Positions 269-10,793 of a stretch of 11,301 nucleotides of DNA are shown here, one piece after another (the stretch's first letter is position 1; the number at the start of each line of letters is the position of its first letter). Made by a program: the position numbers and the translations under genes. The DNA lies in assembly GCA_020697375.1 (NCBI GenBank), contig JAJFBJ010000104.1, forward strand, positions 1 to 11,301. The letters run 5' to 3'. The stretch is from Nitrospira sp. (GTDB lineage: Bacteria > Nitrospirota > Nitrospiria > Nitrospirales > Nitrospiraceae). The notes beneath the pieces were generated by a model, which was not told the DNA's origin, ran no database searches, and saw only the letters and a list, made by a program, of their open reading frames with translations.

Positions 269-1051
269 CTAGGCAGGAGGAATCCCTGCCTGCAATGGCA
301 CGACGAGTAGGTCGTCATGGTTGAACTTTTCCAGCACGACAATTTCCACCCGGCGATTCTTCCGGCGATTCTTGGTCCGTCCTTCGGGAGTGTCGTTGTT
401 TTCAATCGGCTTGGAATCCGCAAAGCCGGTGGCGGAAAGATGTGTAATGGGCACGCCATACAGCTCAGAGAAAATTCTGACGACCATTACGGCCCGCCCC
501 GCGGAAAGCTCCCAATTCGACGGAAATTGCGCCGTTCGAATGGGTACATTGTCGGTATGGCCGAGGATGCGGATATGGCGGTCCATTTCAACCAGGATTT
601 CTGAAAAGGCTTTGAGGAAGGGCAATGCCTCCGCCCGCACGCGCGCTTCCCCGCTCTCAAATAGAATGGATTCCGGCAGGGAAAGCACAATGGCGCCGTT
701 TCCGATTTCGGCGACTTTGATATCCGGCATCTCCGATTTCAGGATCGGATGAATCCTCTTTATAATTTCCCGCATCCGGCGAATGGCCGGTTCGTTTACA
801 TTGGACATGTCGGGATTGATCATCTTCGGCTTCGCATCGCCGATGCTGAACGGCAGGCGGCTGGATGGCGTGCTGTTCACCGGATTCAAGGCGGCTTTGA
901 TAGAGTCACTCACGGTTCGATATTTGCCCTCATTCACAGAGGACACCGAATACATGACGACGAAAAAGGCGAACAGCAGCGTGATGAAATCCGCATAGGA
1001 GACCAGCCAGCGTTCATGATTTTCGTGCTCTTCGTGCTTCTTCTTCGCCAT
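269..1051 (-). CDS. motB: Flagellar stator protein MotB (MotD-type)
   Basis: Stator subunit that anchors the torque-generating complex to peptidoglycan and carries the ion-binding aspartate; 260 residues. A short charged cytoplasmic tail is followed by one membrane helix (about 15-38) with the signature SYADFITLLFAFF; D21 is the expected ion-binding Asp (Asp32 of E. coli MotB). The C-terminal half is an OmpA/MotB peptidoglycan-binding domain with GHTDNVP (164-170), NWELS (179-183) and an Arg-rich NRRVEIV end. The N-terminus, with HENHERW before the helix and NEGKY after it, resembles Pseudomonas MotD more than enteric MotB. The KNRR segment at residues about 227-234 is duplicated by a 12-bp tandem repeat. 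The ATG at 1051 has only a weak ribosome site. motA lies 51 bases upstream, so the two are probably co-transcribed. Confidence 0.95.
   Translation of the reverse strand: MAKKKHEEHENHERWLVSYADFITLLFAFFVVMYSVSSVNEGKYRTVSDSIKAALNPVNSTPSSRLPFSIGDAKPKMINPDMSNVNEPAIRRMREIIKRIHPILKSEMPDIKVAEIGNGAIVLSLPESILFESGEARVRAEALPFLKAFSEILVEMDRHIRILGHTDNVPIRTAQFPSNWELSAGRAVMVVRIFSELYGVPITHLSATGFADSKPIENNDTPEGRTKNRRKNRRVEIVVLEKFNHDDLLVVPLQAGIPPA
350..373. repeat. Exact 12-bp tandem duplication inside motB
   Basis: The 12-mer CCGGCGATTCTT occurs twice in direct contact, at 350-361 and 362-373. It is in frame within motB and yields KNRRKNRR in the protein, where the usual family pattern has a single copy (EGR-x-KNRRVEI). 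It looks like a replication-slippage insertion of four residues next to the conserved Arg that helps bind peptidoglycan. Confidence 0.9.
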
Positions 1052-1102: not shown

Positions 1103-1873
1103 TTACTTTTTCTCTTCCTTCGTCCGTTCGTTCGGAGAGAGGTACCCTTCCAGTTTCTCCTGTAACAGCCTTGGATTTTCTCCCTGTGCCAGGCCGACGA
1201 GTCCCAGAATCATCATCGTCCGCAATCCGGCTTCTTCTTTCAGTTTGAATTTGAGCTTGTTCGCGATCGGCAGAAAAAACAGGTTTGCGGCTCCGACCCC
1301 GTAGACGGTCGCGACGAATGCCACGGCGATACCGCCGCCGAGCTTGGAAGGATCGGCCAGGTTCTCCATCACATGGATCAAGCCAAGCACGGCTCCGAGA
1401 ATGCCGACGGTCGGCGCATAGCCGCCGGCCGCTTCCCAGACCTTGGCCGAGACGACTCCTTCTTCTTCATGGTGCTCGACTTCGATTTCAAGAATCTCCT
1501 GCAAGAGCTTCGGGTCGGTTCCGTCGACGATCAACTGCACTCCCTTTCTGAAAAACGGGTCGTGCAGGTCTTTCAATTTTCCTTCCAGCGCGAGCAGGCC
1601 CTGTTTGCGCGAGACATTCGCCAGATCCAGGATCTGCGAGATGCTTCCTTTGACGTCGTGCGGAGGATTGGTAAGGACGAGAGACAGGGATCCGACGGCT
1701 CTGATGACGACCGGCAGCGTATTTTGCACACAGCAGGCTCCGAACGTCCCACCCATGACGATGATAAAAGCCGTCAATTGAAGGACCGACCCGATGTGTC
1801 CGCCTTCGAGGGCCTGACCACCGATGATCGATCCGATCGCAATGACGATTCCCAGTATGGTGGCTATATCCAC
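1103..1873 (-). CDS. motA: Flagellar stator protein MotA (MotC-type)
   Basis: Inner-membrane ion-channel and torque-generating subunit that pairs with MotB; 256 residues. Four hydrophobic segments are visible: about 3-20, 32-50, 150-170 and 180-203. A large cytoplasmic loop holds the conserved SRKQGLLALE stretch (88-97), which matches the MotA region that contacts the rotor. The GGYAPTVGILGAVLGLIHVM block, NLADPSKLGGGIAVAF and the ENPRLLQEKL tail are typical of the MotC/PomA branch. P154 and P202 correspond to the functional prolines of helices 3 and 4. The start is GTG at 1873, chosen because GAGG lies about ten bases upstream and the protein then begins exactly at the family's usual MDI-x-T-hhG motif. 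motB follows after 51 bases. Upstream lies a divergent small gene, so a promoter is expected in 1874-2015. Confidence 0.95.
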   Translation of the reverse strand: MDIATILGIVIAIGSIIGGQALEGGHIGSVLQLTAFIIVMGGTFGACCVQNTLPVVIRAVGSLSLVLTNPPHDVKGSISQILDLANVSRKQGLLALEGKLKDLHDPFFRKGVQLIVDGTDPKLLQEILEIEVEHHEEEGVVSAKVWEAAGGYAPTVGILGAVLGLIHVMENLADPSKLGGGIAVAFVATVYGVGAANLFFLPIANKLKFKLKEEAGLRTMMILGLVGLAQGENPRLLQEKLEGYLSPNERTKEEKK

Positions 1874-2332: not shown

Positions 2333-2851
2333 CTAGGCTGCTTCTCGGGCGAGCAGAAGCCGGTTCAAATCCACCAGGATAAGGAGCCGGTCTTCAATGC
2401 GCCCTACGCCCTGCGTGAATTCCGCTCCGGCCATCGTACCGACTGATGGCGGAGGCTCGATGGCGCTTTTCGGAACACGCAACACCTCTTCTACTGAATC
2501 CACCACCAGCCCAACCAAGCGTGCCTGCACGGACACTACGACAATCCGCGTATTCGTGGTCCGTTTGGCGCCTGTGAGGCCGAACAGTTTTCGGAGATCC
2601 AGAACCGGAATAATACGGCCCCGCAGATTGATGACGCCTTCCACATAAGGTGGAGTCTTTGGGACTCGCGTGACTTCCACGATCCGGTTGATCTCCTGTA
2701 CGCTTAGGACATCCACCGCGAATTCTTCGTTTCCGATCCTACAGATCACGAATTGAAGAAGATCGTCTCCTGCCTTCTCGTCCAGGCGGTCCGCAGCCTC
2801 TGCTGCGGCCGCCTGGTCGTGGGATTTCACCTGTTGTTCCGTGGCGCTCAT
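2333..2851 (-). CDS. cheW: Chemotaxis coupling protein CheW
   Basis: Scaffold that links chemoreceptors to the CheA kinase in the cytoplasmic array; 172 residues. The CheW fold covers residues about 31-166, with the hallmark block VQEINRIVEVTRVP (51-64), then YVEGVINLRGRIIPVLDLR (69-87), where NLRG at 75-78 is the most conserved part. Residues 1-30 form a charged, Ala-rich extension (AAAAEAADRLDEKAG) beyond the usual start of the domain, possibly a flexible lead. The ATG at 2851 is supported by AGAAGGAG seven bases upstream. It is the last gene of the che series, 27 bases after the mcp stop. The window also encodes a second CheW domain in CheV and a third in CheA, so two separate adaptors can couple to the kinase. 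Confidence 0.96.
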   Translation of the reverse strand: MSATEQQVKSHDQAAAAEAADRLDEKAGDDLLQFVICRIGNEEFAVDVLSVQEINRIVEVTRVPKTPPYVEGVINLRGRIIPVLDLRKLFGLTGAKRTTNTRIVVVSVQARLVGLVVDSVEEVLRVPKSAIEPPPSVGTMAGAEFTQGVGRIEDRLLILVDLNRLLLAREAA

Positions 2852-2878: not shown

Positions 2879-4564
2879 CTAGATCTTGAATCCACCCACG
2901 ATGCCCTGCAACTCGACCGCCAGCTGGCTCAAATCCTGACTGGCCTTCGCCGATTCATGGGCTCCGGACGAAGACTCCTTCGTAACTTTCGCGACCTGCT
3001 CGATGTCGCTGGCAATCTGCTGAGTGGCGACTGATTGCTCCTCCGACGCCACTGCAATCTGCCGGATCATGTCCGCGCTTTCGGATACCATGCGCACGAT
3101 CTGCGACAGGGCTTCGCCGGTCTTATTGACAAGATCAACGCCGGCTGTGACTTTCTGCGTACCCTGCTGCATCGAGTCGACGGCGCCCCGCGTATCCTGT
3201 TGGATTTGACGGATCATATCGCCTATTTCCTTCGTGGCTTTGGTCGTCCGCTCGGCAAGCTTCCGTACTTCATCGGCCACGACGGCGAATCCTCGGCCTT
3301 GTTCACCCGCACGGGCCGCTTCGATCGCGGCGTTCAAGGCCAGCAAATTGGTCTGATCGGCGATGTCTTCAATCGTCCGCACGATTTCACCGATCTGATC
3401 GGACGACTTGCCGAGGTCGGAGATGATCGTGGCGGAATTGGAAACCGCGTCGGACAACTGCTGCATCCCGGAGATGGTGCTCGAAACCACCGTTCCGCCC
3501 TCCTGGGCCGTTTTGACCGTATCCTGTGCGAGACTGGCGGCTTTGCCTGAATTCTGCGCCACTTGACCGACGGTGGCATTCATTTCTTCCACCGCTGCGG
3601 CTGTTTGTGAAGCACGTGAGGTCAAGGTTTCGGTGCCTTTCGAAATCTCCTCGGCCGTCGCGGACAATTCAACCGATGCCGAGGCCACTTTGTCCGTCAC
3701 ATGCGCAACTTTCTTGATCATATGCTGCAATTTCTCGATGAACTCATTGAAGTACCCTCCCATGTGCGCAAGCTCATCATTGCCCTCGCAAGGGACACGC
3801 TTGGTGAGGTCGCCCTCGCCCTTGGCAATGTCTTTCGAAATGTCACTCATTCGCGCGAGAGGTTTCAGCACGATGTTGCGGAGCAGGAAATACATCACCA
3901 CCATGATCGCGACGACGATGCCTCCCATCAGTCCGCCGGTTTGCCACATGGACCGGTTCGACAGAACGATGGCCTCCGCCATGGGAAGCGAGAGGCTCAA
4001 AATGCCCAGGGTATCGCCGACCTGATTGTTGGTATGGCAACCGAGGCAGGCAGAAGAGGAAGCCTTGTCGGCAACGGCTCGTCGGAATGTCTGCACACCG
4101 TTGACGTCGTCGCGGCGGGCATAGCTCTCAGCTCCGGCCATGATGGCTCTGATCGCTTCATTCTCGAAATTGTCTTTTGGTGAGTTCGCGGAATTCAGCG
4201 GATTCTGGCTGACCAGGCGGGCACTGTACAGCCCCGTCCGTGATGCTTCTTCGCCCATTTCCCGGACCGCCGTCGCAGGGAAAGGAATGGCATCCGGAGT
4301 ACCGGTATGGTCCTTGAGAATCTGGATGTCTCCGCCGGACTTCGATTTTTTAATTTTGGCGACATAGTTCTGCGTGATATAGGCCCGGCTGATCATGATC
4401 TGCGTGCTGATGACACTGCTCCGCCCCTTGAGCATCGTGTCCATCTTGGACTCTTCCTGTTGATACAGCACGAAGAGTCCCAGCATGATCACCAGGAGTG
4501 ACACCGTTGAAATGGACAGAATAAACTTGGGCCCGATTGTCATATTCTTCATCATTGTCCCCAT
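2879..4564 (-). CDS. Methyl-accepting chemotaxis protein with periplasmic c-type haem sensor
   Basis: Transmembrane chemoreceptor of 561 residues. Order: TM helix 12-34; periplasmic domain about 35-205; TM helix 209-228; HAMP about 229-281; cytoplasmic signalling domain to the end. The periplasmic part matches the Tll0287-like/DUF3365 family: [11 protein letters not shown] at 119-129, then CLGCH at 173-177, a CXXCH motif for covalent haem c, followed by GILSLSLP. The signalling tip is canonical ([37 protein letters not shown], roughly 404-440), the surface that binds CheW/CheA. No C-terminal NWETF-type CheR tether is present (it ends GGFKI). ATG 4564 follows AGGAGG with a four-base spacer; M4 and M5 are possible alternatives. 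Its place between cheB and cheW suggests it is a main receptor of this array. Redox state, oxygen, NO or another haem ligand is the likely stimulus (inference). Confidence 0.93.
4034..4048 (-). other. CXXCH haem c attachment motif in the chemoreceptor
   Basis: Codons for C173-L-G-C176-H177 lie here on the minus strand. Both cysteines are TGC and the histidine is CAT, read directly from the bases. The motif sits between the two membrane helices, on the periplasmic side where cytochrome c maturation takes place. Confidence 0.9.
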
Positions 4565-4613: not shown

Positions 4614-5711
4614 TCACACCATGTTCATGATTTCGCCGATCACTTTGGAGAGCGAAACCACTTTGTCTGCGCACCCTGCTTCGACGACTGCTTTCGGCAT
4701 GCCGTATACAACACTCGACGCCTCATCCTGAGCCACAGTTCTGCCCTTGGCGGCCTTGATGGCTTTCATCCCTTCCAATCCGTCGTGCCCCATCCCGGTT
4801 AAGATCACTCCGATACTGCGCTCCCCATACAGAGCCGCCACCGATTTGAGCATGATGTCGGCGGAGGGCGCATGCGCATGCTGTTCCACATTCGGCGCAA
4901 GTGACACCACCGTGCTGGTGATGGTCCGTTTGGCGACTCTAAATTGCACTCCTCCGGGGGCCACGAGCACGCGGCCGGGCCGAATTTCATCACCCTCGAC
5001 TGCTTCGCGCACATCAAGCGGGCAAAGGTTATTGAGCCGCTCGGCAAAAGGTTTCGTGAACGATTTCGGCATATGCTGCACGATGACAATCCCGGCCGGA
5101 CAATCCGAGGGAATCATCGGCATGATTTCAAACAATGCCTGCGGACCTCCCGTGGAACATGCAATGGCAATGAGTTTTGTGCCGCGCGTCACGCTGACCG
5201 CGAGGCTGCTCAACGCCTTGATCGGGCTCGCGGTGGTCTTTGCGAGCCCGGTCATCGTGATTTTTTTGAGTTTCGCGCCGGCATGGCTGGCGGCCAGCAC
5301 TTTGGACACGAGTTGCTTTTGAATCTCGGCGATTTTTGAGGCGACCCCGTCTAATTGTTTGGGCACGAAATCCATGGCTCCCCACTCCAAGGCTTGCAAG
5401 GTTTCCTGCGCTCCTTCTACTGTGATGGAGCTCACCATGATGATGGGGACCGGATGTTGCGCCATGATCTGCTGCAAGGCCTGCAGGCCTGTCATACCGG
5501 GCATCTCCACATCCATGGTTACGACGTCCGGTTTCAATTGCCGCACCTGTTGGATGGCTTCCTCTCCGTTTCGCGCGACTCCTACCACCTGAATCTGTTT
5601 GCCTTCCTCCAGCATGTTGGTCAGGCTTTTACGCATAAACGCGGAATCATCCACGACGAGTACGCGTACCGGAGATGCCGGGAGGGTCATGTGTGGGACT
5701 GTAAGCGCCAT
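4614..5711 (-). CDS. cheB: Chemotaxis response regulator protein-glutamate methylesterase CheB
   Basis: Removes methyl groups from receptor glutamates (and deamidates glutamines) to reset adaptation; activated by phosphorylation from CheA. With the start used here it has 365 residues. An N-terminal receiver domain (about 15-130) has the acidic pair D21-D22, phospho-acceptor D67 (VVTMDVEMPGMTG), S94 and K118. A linker of about 50 residues follows. The methylesterase domain carries the catalytic triad S186 (ACSTGGP), H213 (VQHMP) and D310 (GMGHDG). I chose ATG 5711 because AGGA lies four bases upstream. An in-frame TTG at 5747 would add 12 residues but lacks a ribosome site. Its partner cheR is at the head of the same operon. 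The gap to cheV is 81 bases and to mcp 49 bases. Confidence 0.95.
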   Translation of the reverse strand: MALTVPHMTLPASPVRVLVVDDSAFMRKSLTNMLEEGKQIQVVGVARNGEEAIQQVRQLKPDVVTMDVEMPGMTGLQALQQIMAQHPVPIIMVSSITVEGAQETLQALEWGAMDFVPKQLDGVASKIAEIQKQLVSKVLAASHAGAKLKKITMTGLAKTTASPIKALSSLAVSVTRGTKLIAIACSTGGPQALFEIMPMIPSDCPAGIVIVQHMPKSFTKPFAERLNNLCPLDVREAVEGDEIRPGRVLVAPGGVQFRVAKRTITSTVVSLAPNVEQHAHAPSADIMLKSVAALYGERSIGVILTGMGHDGLEGMKAIKAAKGRTVAQDEASSVVYGMPKAVVEAGCADKVVSLSKVIGEIMNMV

Positions 5712-5792
5712 AGCGTCCTGCCTGTTCCCATCGGTTGTCGGCCGCAAAAGCTTGAATGCCTGTGAGTCGTCGATCGACTGTGAATGTGCGTG

Positions 5793-6776
5793 TCAGGCTG
5801 CCTTGCCGGCTTGCTGTTTGTCCTGACTGATATGGAACGATAGTTTTTCACCCAGGATTTTTGCGTCGAATTTTGTGATGTAGTCCGTCGCGCCGACCGC
5901 CTTTCCCTTTTCCATGTTGCATGCGCCAGTCAGCGATGAATGGAGCATTACGGGCAGGTGCGCGAGTCGTGGGTCGGCACGAATGTGCTTGGTCAAGGTA
6001 AAGCCGTCCATTTCCGGCATTTCGATGTCGCTTAAAATGCAGTGGATCTGATCCACTCGCGGTTTGCCTTCCGCCGTGGCCTGGTCGGCGAGCGCTAGGA
6101 GCTTCGTCCAGGCCTCTCCGCCGGTCGTGGCCATGATGTACGACATTTCGAGACGCTCCAGCGCCTTGCGAATTTGCGTGCGTGCCACTGAGGAGTCGTC
6201 GGCAAACAGCATGCATTTCGATTTCAGCTCCGGTGTCATCACCATTCCGGCAAACACTTCATCGTCCGAACGGGGGCAAATATCGTTCAACACTTTCTCC
6301 ACGTCGAGAATCAGCACCATGCGGCCGTCATCCAGCATCGTGACGGCGGTGACGGCGCCCTTGTTGTTTTCTCTGACAATGGCAGGCGGGGTCTTGATGG
6401 CGGACCAGGAGAAGCGAATGATCCGGTCGACTCCCGAGACGAGGAATCCCTGCAAGCTCCCGTTGTATTCGGATACGATTAAGTATGGATGGGGTCCCGC
6501 CGTGCTGATCGCGGGAGCATCTGATTCCATGGCCAGGCCTAAACTGCGCTTGAGGCCCACTACCGGAACCATAATTCCGCGGATGTTGGCCATGCCCACG
6601 ATGCGGCAATCCGCCTCCGGAATTTGTGTGAGCGCCGGCAGCTTCATCACCTCACGAACCTTGAACACGTTGATGCCGAAGATTTCGTTCGTGCCGAGCT
6701 TGAAAAGCAGCAGTTCCATCTGATTGGCGCCCGCGAGCCTGGTCCGTGCATCAATTTCACTGATGAGAGTCGACAT
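5793..6776 (-). CDS. cheV: CheV: CheW-receiver fusion chemotaxis coupling protein
   Basis: Adaptor that couples receptors to CheA and whose activity is tuned by phosphorylation; 327 residues. A CheW-like domain spans about 18-165, with FGINVFKVREVM (33-44), NIRG (64-67) in place of the NLRG of CheW, and VLILDVEKVL near its end. A receiver domain spans about 186-315 with D193-D194, phospho-acceptor D250 (CILSDIEMPEMDG), S280 and K302. The receiver has a longer loop before the phospho-Asp than CheY. ATG 6776 follows GGAGG with a four-base spacer. It sits between cheA (50 bases upstream) and cheB (81 bases downstream). The full set of receiver residues suggests it is phosphorylated by CheA and acts in adaptation or as a phosphate sink (family knowledge). 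Confidence 0.93.
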   Translation of the reverse strand: MSTLISEIDARTRLAGANQMELLLFKLGTNEIFGINVFKVREVMKLPALTQIPEADCRIVGMANIRGIMVPVVGLKRSLGLAMESDAPAISTAGPHPYLIVSEYNGSLQGFLVSGVDRIIRFSWSAIKTPPAIVRENNKGAVTAVTMLDDGRMVLILDVEKVLNDICPRSDDEVFAGMVMTPELKSKCMLFADDSSVARTQIRKALERLEMSYIMATTGGEAWTKLLALADQATAEGKPRVDQIHCILSDIEMPEMDGFTLTKHIRADPRLAHLPVMLHSSLTGACNMEKGKAVGATDYITKFDAKILGEKLSFHISQDKQQAGKAA

Positions 6777-6826
6777 GCTTCCTCCGATTTCTCTCTTCGT
6801 CGTTCATCGTGCGCGTAGGCGCAGGA

Positions 6827-8737
6827 TTAGACCGCTGCCCCGGCGGTATGCCAGGCCCGTGCATTCTGGACCAGTTCAGAGGTATCGAGGATCAGTACGA
6901 CCTTGCCTTCACCGGTAATGGTCGCGCCCGACACACCCTTGACCGTTTCGAGATAGTCCCAGATGGATTTGATGACCACTTCTTCTTGTGAGCGCAGTTC
7001 GTCGACCACGACCCCGACCCGTCGGTCGCCCAATGCGGCCACCACGACATAAAATCGGTCCCTCTCAGAATCGGTCGGGATTTCAAACTCTTGTGCCAGG
7101 CGAATCAGCGGCAGTACCCGGTCCCGTAGATGCAGAACCTCGCGCCCATTGATCGTCTTGATGTCCGTACGTGAAATCCGAACCGCTTCGATCACCGTGC
7201 TCAGCGGGATGGCGAAGATCGATCGCTCCACTTCCACCATCAACGCTTGAATGATCGCGATGGTCAGAGGCAGTTTGATGATGATCTGGCTGCCTTTGCC
7301 CGGTTCGGATTCCAAATCCACACTGCCGTTGATCTTTCGAATGTTGGTTCGAACGACATCCATGCCGACGCCACGGCCGGATACGTCGGTGACTTGCTCG
7401 GCCGTGCTGAACCCCGGCAAAAAAATGAGATTCAGCACCTCGCGATGTTCCATCGTAGCCAGTTCCGCTTCCCCGATCAGGCCCTTGGCCAAGGCCTTGG
7501 CTTTGATCTTCTCGACAGGAATACCGCGCCCGTCGTCGTTGATGCGGATGACGATGCTATTGCCTTCCTGGCTTGCGGCGATGGTGAGCTGTCCTTCGCC
7601 CTGCTTTCCTTTGGCTTGCCGTTCAGCGGGAGTCTCAATCCCATGGTCGATGGCATTGCGCACCAGGTGGACCAGCGGATCACCGATTTCATCGGCGACG
7701 GATTTGTCGAGTTCAGTTTCTTCTCCGCGCATCTCCAACCGGACCTGCTTGTTCAGTTTCTGCGAAAGGTCACGCACCATGCGCGGCAGCTTGGCGAAGA
7801 CTTTCTTGATCGGGAGCATGCGGGTTTTCATGACGGCCAGTTGCAGATCGGTCGTCACCAGATTGAGCTGCGCGAGGGTTTCGCTCAGAACACGAACCTG
7901 AGGGTCCGATTCATGGTTCTGTTCCAGCTGGGTGCCGATCTTGATCAGACGATTGCGGCCCAGGACCAACTCACCGACCAGATTCATCACGCTGTCGAGC
8001 CGTTTGGTTTCCACCCGAATGGTCGCGTCTTCTTCAGGCGGTCTCGGTTGTTTGTCCTGCTTTTGGAGGGCCTGATCCAGCGCCCGCTCGGTGATGGCTT
8101 TGGCCTGGAGTAGAATTTCTCCCAATGGGGTCTTGGGATCAGGCTGATGCTGTTGCGCATTGAGAGCGTCTAACACCTGGCCTTTCGACGCCAGACCCTC
8201 GTCCACCAGAATTTCGCCTAACGTGTGCGTCGCCGAAGCGGGAGAGACTTGCGATTCGGATGCGGACAGCGTGCCGATCGGCGACACCGTCGCAGTCTTT
8301 GCCTCTATCGAATGAACCGAGGCAGCGGCCGGCTCCGACAGGCTGGTTTTCCCGTTGATGATATCGTCCAACTTGGCGGAGATTTCTTCGGTGGGCACGT
8401 GCGCGTCGGTTCCCGATCCACGAATGTCGGCCATGATCGCTTTGATGACGTCTATGGTTTCCAGGATGACGCTGATCACGACCGGGACGACCGCCATCTC
8501 TCCCTGCCGGAGCTTATTCAGAATGTTTTCTCCGCGATGGGCGACGTCGACCAAATGGTTGAACCCCAGGAAGCCGGCGGATCCTTTCATGCTATGCATC
8601 GCACGAAAGATTTCATTGAGAAGGTCTGTGTTGTTGGGATCGGACTCCAATGTCACGAACCGCTGATCCAAGACCTCCAGCATCTCGTTGGACTCGGTTA
8701 GAAAGTCGTTGAGTATTTCCTGCATTTCATCGCTCAT
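6827..8737 (-). CDS. cheA: Chemotaxis histidine kinase CheA
   Basis: Central kinase of the array; autophosphorylates in response to receptors and passes phosphate to CheY, CheB and probably CheV. 636 residues. P1/HPt domain about 1-105 with phospho-acceptor H48 (AMHSMKGSAGF). The linker, about 106-235, has no recognisable P2 CheY/CheB-binding domain but has two LGEIL repeats (see separate entry). P3 dimerisation domain about 240-320 (RLDSVMNLVGELVLGRNRL). P4 ATPase has the N box around N361 (LVRNAIDHGIE), G1 NDDGRGIP (400-407) and G2 GRGVGMD (454-460). P5 CheW-like domain covers about 495-625. All catalytic boxes appear intact. ATG 8737 follows GAGGTGG, which overlaps the cheZ stop codon, so the two are probably translationally coupled. 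Confidence 0.97.
   Translation of the reverse strand: MSDEMQEILNDFLTESNEMLEVLDQRFVTLESDPNNTDLLNEIFRAMHSMKGSAGFLGFNHLVDVAHRGENILNKLRQGEMAVVPVVISVILETIDVIKAIMADIRGSGTDAHVPTEEISAKLDDIINGKTSLSEPAAASVHSIEAKTATVSPIGTLSASESQVSPASATHTLGEILVDEGLASKGQVLDALNAQQHQPDPKTPLGEILLQAKAITERALDQALQKQDKQPRPPEEDATIRVETKRLDSVMNLVGELVLGRNRLIKIGTQLEQNHESDPQVRVLSETLAQLNLVTTDLQLAVMKTRMLPIKKVFAKLPRMVRDLSQKLNKQVRLEMRGEETELDKSVADEIGDPLVHLVRNAIDHGIETPAERQAKGKQGEGQLTIAASQEGNSIVIRINDDGRGIPVEKIKAKALAKGLIGEAELATMEHREVLNLIFLPGFSTAEQVTDVSGRGVGMDVVRTNIRKINGSVDLESEPGKGSQIIIKLPLTIAIIQALMVEVERSIFAIPLSTVIEAVRISRTDIKTINGREVLHLRDRVLPLIRLAQEFEIPTDSERDRFYVVVAALGDRRVGVVVDELRSQEEVVIKSIWDYLETVKGVSGATITGEGKVVLILDTSELVQNARAWHTAGAAV
8054..8227 (-). 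other. Tandem MshEN-like LGEIL repeats in the CheA linker
   Basis: CheA residues 171-228 hold two related helical motifs, TLGEILVDEGLASKGQVLDA (172-191, continuing LNAQQ) and PLGEILLQAKAITERALDQA (204-223, continuing LQKQ), whose LGEIL starts are 32 residues apart. The pattern LGxhL-x3-G-x-h-x5-L-x2-AL-x2-Q is that of the T2SSE_N/MshEN fold. The Arg of the RLG consensus is Thr or Pro here, and the second copy lacks the Gly, so nucleotide binding is uncertain. A structural or docking role is equally possible. Confidence 0.7.
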
Positions 8738-8746
8738 AACCCCACC

Positions 8747-9397
8747 TCAGTTAAATCCGAATTGCTTCAGAATCTCATCGGCGAGATCCTGGTTCATCGA
8801 GGTATTCTTGGTCGCTTCCAGTTGCTTCAACATATCGCTGGCCTTGTCCTGATCCTTTTTCGCCGCCTGTTTCTGGTACGGACCGAATACCACCACCAGT
8901 TGGAGAAGCTTGTGCTCGACTTCATCGAGAATGGTCACCAATTTGTTGACGCTCTGCGCCACCAGATCCTGAAACGATAAGGCGGTCATGATATCGAGCA
9001 GACGTTTGTCATCCTGCCCGAGGATCTGTCCGATGGTCTGAAGCTGTTGCTTCAATGCAGGGGATGCCTGAGTTTGCTGCAGCGCCCTGGTCATCTCTTG
9101 GAGCAGGGCGCCGAGTTGGATATGAGTATCCTGGATGGCTTCCACCTGCCGCATGACCTCGTGCGTCCCCTGTTCCGTCAAGGTCTTCAGATTGGTGAGA
9201 TGAGTCACTGCTTGAGGCAGCTGTTCTGTCGAGCTATTGACCGGCGCACTGAATTCCGACAATGTCCGCATCGTGGTATCGATAAATCGCGCCAATTCCC
9301 CGAGCTCATCATAAAGCTTAGTATTGGGGTCCTGTCCGTTCCCGTCTGAATCGTTCGTTGCGCTTGCCGACTGGGTTCTCGCAGGGGATTGTGCCAT
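8747..9397 (-). CDS. cheZ: Chemotaxis protein phosphatase CheZ
   Basis: Dephosphorylates CheY-P so that the motor signal decays quickly. With the start used here it has 216 residues, close to the 214 of E. coli CheZ. A long helical hairpin runs from about 65 to 170. The active-site helix reads SFQDLVAQ, with D144 and Q148 at the positions of the catalytic Asp143 and Gln147 of E. coli. A charged Lys/Gln/Asp linker is followed by a C-terminal helix QDLADEILKQFGF, which matches the CheY-binding tail (hydrophobic-acidic, ending in GF). ATG 9397 was chosen because GAGG lies six bases upstream; the GTG at 9409 has no ribosome site. It follows cheY by 26 bases and precedes cheA by 9, an order also known from Pseudomonas. 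Residues before about 30 are low-complexity Ser/Asn/Gln/Asp-rich. Confidence 0.92.
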   Translation of the reverse strand: MAQSPARTQSASATNDSDGNGQDPNTKLYDELGELARFIDTTMRTLSEFSAPVNSSTEQLPQAVTHLTNLKTLTEQGTHEVMRQVEAIQDTHIQLGALLQEMTRALQQTQASPALKQQLQTIGQILGQDDKRLLDIMTALSFQDLVAQSVNKLVTILDEVEHKLLQLVVVFGPYQKQAAKKDQDKASDMLKQLEATKNTSMNQDLADEILKQFGFN

Positions 9398-9423
9398 CGC
9401 CGCCCTCACCGGTTAGGAGTCGA

Positions 9424-9804
9424 TTATTTGAAAATCTTGTTGATCTTTTCCTGCATCGTCTCGGCGGTGAATGGTTTGACGACATAGTTGCTCACGCCTG
9501 CCTGGACGGCCTCCATGAGGTTTTCTTTTTGCGCCTCGGCCGTGACCATCAAGACCGGAATCTTTTTTAGTTTTTCATCGGCACGGATTGCGCGCAGCAG
9601 ATCGATTCCCATCATGACCGGCATATTCCAGTCGGACACGACAAACCCATAACTGTCTGCCTGCAACTTGGTGAGCGCATCCTGCCCGTTCTCGGCCTCC
9701 TCCAGATTGTTGAAGCCGAGCTGTTTGAGAATATTCTTCACGATGCGCCGCATGGTGGACATGTCGTCGACGACAAGAATTTTCATGTTGGGATCGGCTG
9801 GCAT
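9424..9804 (-). CDS. cheY: Chemotaxis response regulator CheY
   Basis: Single-domain receiver that carries the signal from CheA to the flagellar switch (FliM). 126 residues with all key positions present: D13 and D14 for Mg binding, phospho-acceptor D58 (VVSDWNMP), T88 (VTAEA), Y107 and K110 (YVVKPF). The sequence [23 protein letters not shown] and INKIF is very close to proteobacterial CheY. One departure is MMG at 64-66, where the family usually has (N/K)MDG or similar. The ATG at 9804 is preceded by TAAGGAGG with a seven-base spacer, and this ribosome site includes the stop codon of cheR (9819..9817), so the two genes are tightly coupled. No output domain is present. Confidence 0.97.
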
Positions 9805-9816
9805 GCATCATCCTCC

Positions 9817-10680
9817 TTACTGTTTTTCATGAATAACGGAACGGCCCGCGTGAATGGCCCTGAAGAGGCCGGTTGTATCGTGCAACGTTTCGGAAAAACC
9901 GATCATCAAGTACCCCTTGGGCCGCAACGCGTCCCGCAGGTCTGAAATAATCTGCATTTTGGCTTTGTCGTCGAAATAGATGAGGCAGTTGCGACAAAAC
10001 ACCATATCCATCCCGCGCACCAACTTGAGGCGAGGGCGGTCGTAAAGATTCACCGTCATGAACCGGACCATGTTTTTCACCACAGGGAGGAGAGTCTGCT
10101 GGTCGGCCGTCCCGGTAAAATATTTCGCGAGCATGGCGGCTGGTACCTTTCGCAGGGAATGCGAGCTGTATTTGGCGGCTCTCGCGATATTCAGAACGCT
10201 TTCACTGATATCCGTGGCCAAAATGTCAATGGACCAACCGGCCAGAGGAGGATGGTCGCGCAAGAGCAACGCCAGGGTGTAGGGCTCGTCACCGGTGGAG
10301 CAAGCGGCACTCCAAATACGAATCTGTTTCGTCGCCGCATTGGTTTTCATGACTTCGGGGATCATGACTTTCATGAACGTATCGAGCTGCGCTTCGTCGC
10401 GGAAAAAGTAGGTCTCATTGGTGGTGATGACCGTGTACAGTTCGGTGAACTCCCGGTCACGGTACGCATCGAACCGCAAGAAATTGAGGTACTGTTCGAA
10501 TGTCTGGCAACGGCAGGCTTTCAATCGGAGCTGCAGGCGATTTTCCAAGAGATAGGTTTTGTTTTCCTGGAAATGGATGCCCGTCTGTTCGTAAATCAAA
10601 TCCCGGAGATGCTTGAACGTATCGAGATTCAACTTGGCCGCTGGCACATCGGACTTTTTCACCGTATTCGTGTCGGCCAT
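9817..10680 (-). CDS. cheR: Chemotaxis protein methyltransferase CheR
   Basis: Transfers methyl groups from S-adenosylmethionine to receptor glutamates; counterpart of CheB. With the start used here it has 287 residues, matching E. coli CheR (286). An N-terminal helical domain (about 17-85) leads to TNETYFFRD (88-95). The SAM-binding Rossmann domain has WSAACSTGDEPYTLAL (123-138), the Asp of ATDIS (155-159), FCRNCLIYFD (228-237) and GYLMIGFSETL (256-266). Small departures from the family consensus are Ala for Gly in WSAGCS, Asp for Glu in STGEEPY, and Cys for Val in CRNVLIYF. ATG 10680 was chosen for the AAGAGG six bases upstream and the fit in length. ATG 10779 would add 33 residues, but they have no ribosome site and do not look like CheR. 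Confidence 0.95.
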   Translation of the reverse strand: MADTNTVKKSDVPAAKLNLDTFKHLRDLIYEQTGIHFQENKTYLLENRLQLRLKACRCQTFEQYLNFLRFDAYRDREFTELYTVITTNETYFFRDEAQLDTFMKVMIPEVMKTNAATKQIRIWSAACSTGDEPYTLALLLRDHPPLAGWSIDILATDISESVLNIARAAKYSSHSLRKVPAAMLAKYFTGTADQQTLLPVVKNMVRFMTVNLYDRPRLKLVRGMDMVFCRNCLIYFDDKAKMQIISDLRDALRPKGYLMIGFSETLHDTTGLFRAIHAGRSVIHEKQ

Positions 10681-10793
10681 CGCATGCCTCTTCATGAACC
10701 GTTGCAGGTGATGGGTCGGATGCGCTCGGACAGCCGAGCCGTCCCGGATGTGCGATCCTGCCAGTTCTGCGCTCCCCATGCGGGGGACAAGGA
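10681..10793. promoter_or_regulatory. Leader between the HTH gene and cheR
   Basis: If cheR starts at 10680, this 113-base gap is the largest in the che series. It contains a perfect 6-bp inverted repeat with a 4-base loop (GCTCGG-ACAG-CCGAGC, 10724-10739) and a short CCCC-ATGC-GGGG palindrome (10775-10786 region). No T run follows either, so they are not typical terminators. They could be mRNA leader structure, an attenuator or a protein-binding site. No convincing promoter hexamers were seen. Confidence 0.35.

Follow-up and report, generated by a model that had tools for sequence, protein, structure and literature searches.

A predicted haem chemoreceptor of the sCache_heme family in the flagellar che operon of Nitrospira

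Introduction

The sCache_heme family (PF11845) was defined in a preprint of February 2026 (Deshpande et al., PMC12889525), according to which these domains are fused to methyl-accepting chemotaxis proteins (MCPs), kinases, and c-di-GMP enzymes; in several phyla, Nitrospirota included, over half of the genomes encode them. The haem-attachment motif CXXCH is present in 99% and 99.4% of two sCache_heme sets. In the grouping given there, members linked to signalling modules are nitric oxide (NO) sensors, and those that stand alone are redox proteins; NO binding in the signalling branch is demonstrated for one protein only, a HAMP-linked protein of P. azotoformans that releases NO slowly (koff 6.25e-4 per s) and behaves as an NO sensor. 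The Geobacter receptors GSU0582 and GSU0935, also assigned to the family, bind NO and CO and undergo a redox-linked change of ligand and spin, with midpoints of -156 and -251 mV; the crystal of GSU0935 is a swapped dimer (PMC8396549). Here a receptor of this kind is described from Nitrospira sp., encoded on the minus strand of a stretch of 11,301 nucleotides (contig JAJFBJ010000104.1, hereafter the window). The favoured reading, with a probability of roughly 0.55, is that it is a Nitrospira sCache_heme chemoreceptor that senses NO through a haem.

Papers on Nitrospira contain general remarks on chemotaxis genes. For example, MCPs and a flagellum are mentioned for N. lenta (PMC6251164), and a strain without flagellar genes has an MCP and type IV pili (PMC12542776). 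The terms "chemotaxis" and "flagell-" do not occur in the available text of PMC12342949. No sensory input is assigned to any receptor in the available parts of these papers, nor in those of PMC6606698 and PMC5596200, and no description of the present receptor in Nitrospira was found in the accessible open-access literature. The receptor kind itself is already known since the early-2026 preprint. The present analysis contributes the receptor's consistent location within the flagellar che operon, the residue His86, and the finding that some genomes have few other MCPs. A specialist might not foresee that some Nitrospira have a single-receptor setting, or that stand-alone family members are linked with nirK as well as with a Pil-Chp-like operon.

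The receptor and its sensor domain

The receptor gene and its domains are listed in Table 1. PF11845 matched the sensor with an E-value of 3.1e-16 and 60.5 bits (cut-off 24.1), and because the HAMP and MCPsignal domains both score above their cut-offs the protein passes as an MCP. The interval 3965-4417, in which the initial annotation had recognized a DUF3365/Tll0287-like c-haem sensor of a chemoreceptor, corresponds to residues 50-200 of the open reading frame (ORF). This assignment is borne out by the profile and by the fold, and membership in the sCache_heme/Tll0287-like family is nearly certain. The CXXCH motif does lie between two membrane segments, and the flanks described for it (a segment upstream and GILSLSLP downstream) are present in the translation. 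By hydropathy alone, the position of the sensor between the two hydrophobic segments makes it extracytoplasmic. No globin or PAS profile was found among the Pfam matches of the receptor at E up to 0.01. The receptor architecture, its family, and its operon placement are solid.

CLGCH is the sole CXXCH in all six frames of the window; when residues 35-205 were shuffled 100,000 times, the motif appeared in 15 permutations. A search for sensor relatives at E up to 0.001 returned 241 proteins, the best 120 of which were analysed (one being the window's own protein); the named source organisms among these 120 were all Nitrospira or other Nitrospirota. A second protein search with the A2 profile added 34 further identifiers, mainly fragments. 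In all 120 listed relatives the motif is present with its two cysteines and histidine aligned at columns 173, 176, and 177, and H86, R60, Y62, Y67, and K70 are likewise identical in every one. Motif conservation is thus established directly. It argues, together with the 99% reported for the family (PMC12889525), against a structural or vestigial haem in a receptor that would sense a small molecule in the Cache pocket, or the energy state through the membrane segments and HAMP. Small molecules are the usual ligands of Cache domains (PMC12889525), which speaks for such an arrangement; overall it is considered improbable.

The distal side of the predicted haem is constrained by composition. The receptor contains only three cysteines (173, 176, and 259), the last of which is cytoplasmic, and its only histidines within residues 1-225 are 86 and 177. 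A distal Cys ligand as in Tll0287 is therefore lacking, and since the sensor cysteines are limited to 173 and 176 the Cys/His ligation of Tll0287 is inapplicable. The distal side may instead be occupied by His86 (a candidate only, chosen from its invariance), by water, or be open. Methionines are conserved to varying degrees among the 120 listed relatives (M103 in 111, M142 in 113, M195 in 120), at positions that may or may not be near the haem. Position 61 was considered as the counterpart of the Tll0287 Cys; this was guessed from the limits of the aligned ranges and was not used as evidence.

Predicted fold

The predicted sensor fold agrees with that of Tll0287 (PDB 5b82), a match that is established for the model. 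Counting from residue 30 as the start of the model, long strands at 118-125 and 128-138 are followed by a helix at 142-146 and a strand at 156-165, and CXXCH occupies 144-148. In the predicted model the motif therefore sits, as in sCache_heme, within an inserted segment that carries a short helix and separates strands three and four of the Cache sheet. Tll0287 is a stand-alone protein with Cys/His ligation, whereas the window sensor is fused to an MCP and has no Cys outside the motif.

In sequence searches of the PDB, phmmer with the window sensor found no match, the A2 profile reached 5b82 at an E-value of 0.062 only, and the A3 profile gave 4.6e-12, a value that cannot speak for the window sensor alone because 16 of the 20 A3 rows are Nitrospira paralogues.

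The initial annotation had contrasted the receptor with the c-haem "PAS" receptors of Geobacter. That contrast does not hold: PMC12889525 places GSU0582 and GSU0935 in the same family, and Foldseek with the sensor model ranks GSU0935 (3b42) third and fourth (E 3e-4). The superposition of the model on 3b42 was poor (rmsd 14.3, TMq 0.35), and 3b42 was absent among the best 50 rows of a second structure-match listing. The second Foldseek rank, 9a5d_A (a WalK complex model), is read as a general Cache-like arrangement. Like the window receptor, for which the haem is a prediction, GSU0582 and GSU0935 combine a periplasmic c-haem domain with two membrane segments, HAMP, and an MCP output.

Haem supply

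The genome survey covered 25 genomes from the genus to which N. defluvii belongs (itself included as G006), which stand in for the organism of the window. A completeness of 90% was requested for the set; no completeness values were printed for it. ResB (PF05140) was found in all 25 genomes and in 5 of 14 control genomes, and Cytochrom_C_asm (PF01578) in all 25 and in 9 of the 14 controls. Together they are the central components of System II cytochrome c maturation. Haem c maturation genes, whose presence the initial annotation had proposed to check, thus occur in the related genomes. Covalent haem c is probably carried by the receptor. The alternative that the cysteines are disulfide-bonded or ligate some other metal, with no haem, draws its sole support from the haem being a prediction in this receptor; given the profile match, the fold match, the periplasmic position, and the maturation genes in all related genomes, it is very unlikely.

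The che operon

The receptor lies inside a core che operon, as had been proposed, according to both the Pfam content of the window (Table 1) and the neighbourhoods of related loci. Within the window cheB is separated from the receptor gene by 49 bp and the receptor gene from cheW by 27 bp. Neighbourhoods were counted in 39 of 43 loci, those with the sensor (L038, L041, L042, and L043, without a sensor match, were excluded), and neighbours were scored only among homologues of the window's genes. The gene cheB is next upstream of the receptor in 27 of the 39 loci (L001-L026, L040) and follows it in ten (L027, L029, L030, L032-L037, L039); L028 and L031 have no cheB adjoining the receptor. Where contigs are long enough, the order cheR-Y-Z-A-V-B-mcp-W-motA-motB is kept in the group with cheB upstream. 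The first-listed match (L001, genome G001) is 92% identical to the window's receptor over the best segment.

Table 1. Features of the window and of one N. defluvii gene run. Residue numbers refer to the receptor protein.
Feature	Position	Strand	Evidence or remark
Chemoreceptor gene, 561 aa (membrane segment 1, sCache_heme sensor, membrane segment 2, HAMP, MCP signalling domain)	2879..4564	-	ORF and Pfam
Tll0287-like (PF11845, sCache_heme) sensor, residues 45-218	3911..4432	-	Pfam
CLGCH, residues 173-177 (C173, C176, H177), predicted haem c attachment site	4034..4048	-
His86, candidate distal haem ligand	4307..4309	-	Invariant among the 120 listed relatives
Membrane segment 1, residues ~8-36	4457..4543	-	Hydropathy
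Membrane segment 2, residues ~206-237	3854..3949	-	Hydropathy
HAMP domain, residues 228-280	3725..3883	-	50.4 bits, cut-off 25
MCP signalling domain (MCPsignal), best stretch residues 344-528	2981..3535	-	191 bits, cut-off 34.6
MotB/MotD-like	269..1051	-	PF13677 and PF00691
MotA	1103..1873	-	PF01618; above NF006583 cut-off
CheW	2333..2851	-	PF01584
CheB	4614..5747	-	PF01339 and PF00072
CheV-like (CheW plus receiver)	5793..6776	-	PF01584 and PF00072
CheA	6827..8737	-	PF01627, PF02895, PF02518, PF01584
CheZ	8747..9409	-	PF04344
CheY	9424..9804	-	PF00072
CheR	9817..10779	-	PF01739 and PF03705
N. defluvii run in locus L074: sCache_heme, NirK-like, Crp/Fnr-type regulator	1841-2776, 4806-5777, 5952-6785	-

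The gap between cheW and motA (459 bp, positions 1874-2332) exceeds the other gaps of the run and may hold a promoter or mark an operon boundary. Downstream of its haem-receptor operon, N. defluvii has a gene for a 371-residue MCPsignal protein without a recognized sensor (L056:13388-14503, plus strand) and then one for a second CheA of 715 residues (L056:15009-17156, plus strand); at several relatives, L001 included, the downstream region gave no match to such a CheA.

Distribution among Nitrospira genomes

One strong orthologue of the receptor is present in 19 of the 25 genomes, with 74-87% identity over the sensor. By PF00015 the genomes possess one to five MCPs. In six of the 19 orthologue genomes (G001, G020, G022, G023, G028, and G029) exactly two were detected, the haem receptor and a PilJ-like protein, which leaves the flagellar system of these six with a single evident receptor, the haem protein. 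CheA was searched for in three of them (G001, G022, and G023). Each gave two matches: the first lies roughly 4 kb away from the haem receptor, the second in a frame of ChpA length (1137-1144 aa). An assembly gap is unlikely in G022 because every listed match sits on contig C1, which at 4,616,681 bases is close to the genome size of about 4.6 Mb. Some of the six assemblies are fragmented; G028, for example, has the receptor some 1 kb short of a contig end. In such genomes an MCP may have been missed. The remaining 13 orthologue genomes have three to five MCPs, for which reason "only receptor" is not a general description. The suggestion of the initial annotation that haem-based sensing is a primary input of the pathway is accordingly supported for part of the genus, and not generally.

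The signal: nitric oxide or redox potential

The window receptor resembles the sCache_heme signalling branch in its profile, CXXCH motif, periplasmic Cache fold, and HAMP and MCP output, as well as in its occurrence in Nitrospirota and its lack of an axial Cys, which is absent from the P. azotoformans protein too; no family-defining difference was seen. By analogy, NO would be the likeliest signal, with about even odds of being the main one, and redox potential its main rival. In the proposed mechanism CLGCH would receive haem c from a ResB/CcsA-type system on the periplasmic side, with His177 as the probable proximal ligand. The distal site, having no Cys, would hold water or His86 or be empty, and NO, possibly together with a redox change of the haem, would change how the haem iron is coordinated. 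This change would pass through the Cache fold and HAMP to the MCP hairpin, which would set CheA activity with CheW and CheV; CheY would then act on the flagellar motor and be dephosphorylated by CheZ, while CheR and CheB would adapt the receptor. The haem, its ligand, and the direction of the response are inferred.

In a redox (energy-taxis) receptor, periplasmic electron carriers would oxidize and reduce the haem, a swap of the distal ligand would switch the kinase, and NO binding would be incidental. The same was proposed for GSU0582 and GSU0935, whose redox-linked ligand and spin change and midpoints speak for this reading (PMC8396549), and the invariant His86 could act as the switching ligand. 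However, GSU0935 can use Met60 as a distal ligand, whereas no equivalent conserved Met near R60 was identified among the 120 listed relatives, and the grouping in PMC12889525 places signal-linked members with the NO sensors. The redox account is possible but less likely than NO sensing.

Several points weigh against NO sensing by this receptor. The haem and the response of the receptor itself are predictions, and the NO interpretation is borrowed from a single Pseudomonas protein and a pair from Geobacter, for the latter of which the authors prefer redox sensing (PMC8396549). PMC5596200 states that Nitrospira NirK had no documented NO-forming activity. In addition, the orthologue was not found in six of the 25 genomes (G013, G014, G019, G024, G026, and G027), four of which (G013, G019, G024, and G026) contain flagellin. 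In five of the six the single CheA match falls in a frame of ChpA length; G026 shows two additional matches. Loss and assembly gap are indistinguishable in these genomes.

Stand-alone sCache_heme genes

PF11845 matches number 7-13 per genome in a set of nine genomes and 5-13 in the set of 25. In the nine-genome set 70 of 85 matches lie in open frames shorter than 500 aa. One such stand-alone gene in N. defluvii (L054:12274-13008, minus strand) heads a Pil-Chp-like operon (L054:5886-12209, minus strand) with a receiver, CheW, 4HB-MCP, and three-Hpt CheA. N. moscoviensis (L055:3271-10297) shares this gene order, and so do L046-L051 over the length of their short pieces. Neither "pilus" nor "operon" is mentioned in the main text of PMC12889525, to the extent available, and phmmer of the Pil-linked stand-alone protein against the PDB found no family member. 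Among the stronger PF11845 matches of those listed, a match lies within 5 kb of a PilJ-like MCP in at least 22 of 25 genomes and, under the same limit, 3.0-3.5 kb from a NirK-like gene in at least 24 of 25.

In N. defluvii a stand-alone sCache_heme gene, the NirK-like gene, and an adjoining Crp/Fnr-type regulator gene form a same-strand run (Table 1). The TIGR02376 cut-off was passed in only one of the 25 genomes (controls: seven of 14 with a match, one above cut-off), and the N. defluvii protein scores 197.5 against the NCBIfam cut-off of 296.3. Its identity as NirK is drawn from its best PDB match, 4kns (348 bits, "Multicopper oxidase type 1"), which is presumably the Nitrosomonas europaea enzyme and is followed by copper nitrite reductases. 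All compared Nitrospira strains have nirK, with an Fnr gene upstream in some and no nor genes (PMC5596200), and N. moscoviensis has several constitutively transcribed nirK genes (PMC6606698).

A wider scheme, speculative and rather doubtful, may be drawn from these links. Flagellar chemotaxis in Nitrospira would depend mainly on the haem receptor, and in some species on this receptor alone. The receptor would read NO that NirK produces from nitrite in the periplasm or that escapes from ammonia oxidizers nearby, and the stand-alone sCache_heme proteins would extend the cue to twitching and nitrite reduction. If so, NO would be a proxy for the growth substrate. The navigation of nitrite oxidizers is little studied; in a genome with one evident receptor for the flagellar CheA and an assayable predicted haem, what Nitrospira swims towards becomes directly testable, and the sCache_heme NO hypothesis gains a natural host.

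An unusual fusion was also seen in N. defluvii, where a PF11845 protein in a long open frame (L061:842-2601, minus strand) has an NTPase-like N-terminal part, with VLVIDEAQ seen by eye. In two other Nitrospirales, G008 (L029) and G009 (L033), two and three frames, respectively, carry PF11845 and MCPsignal together; the receptor type is multiplied in these lineages.
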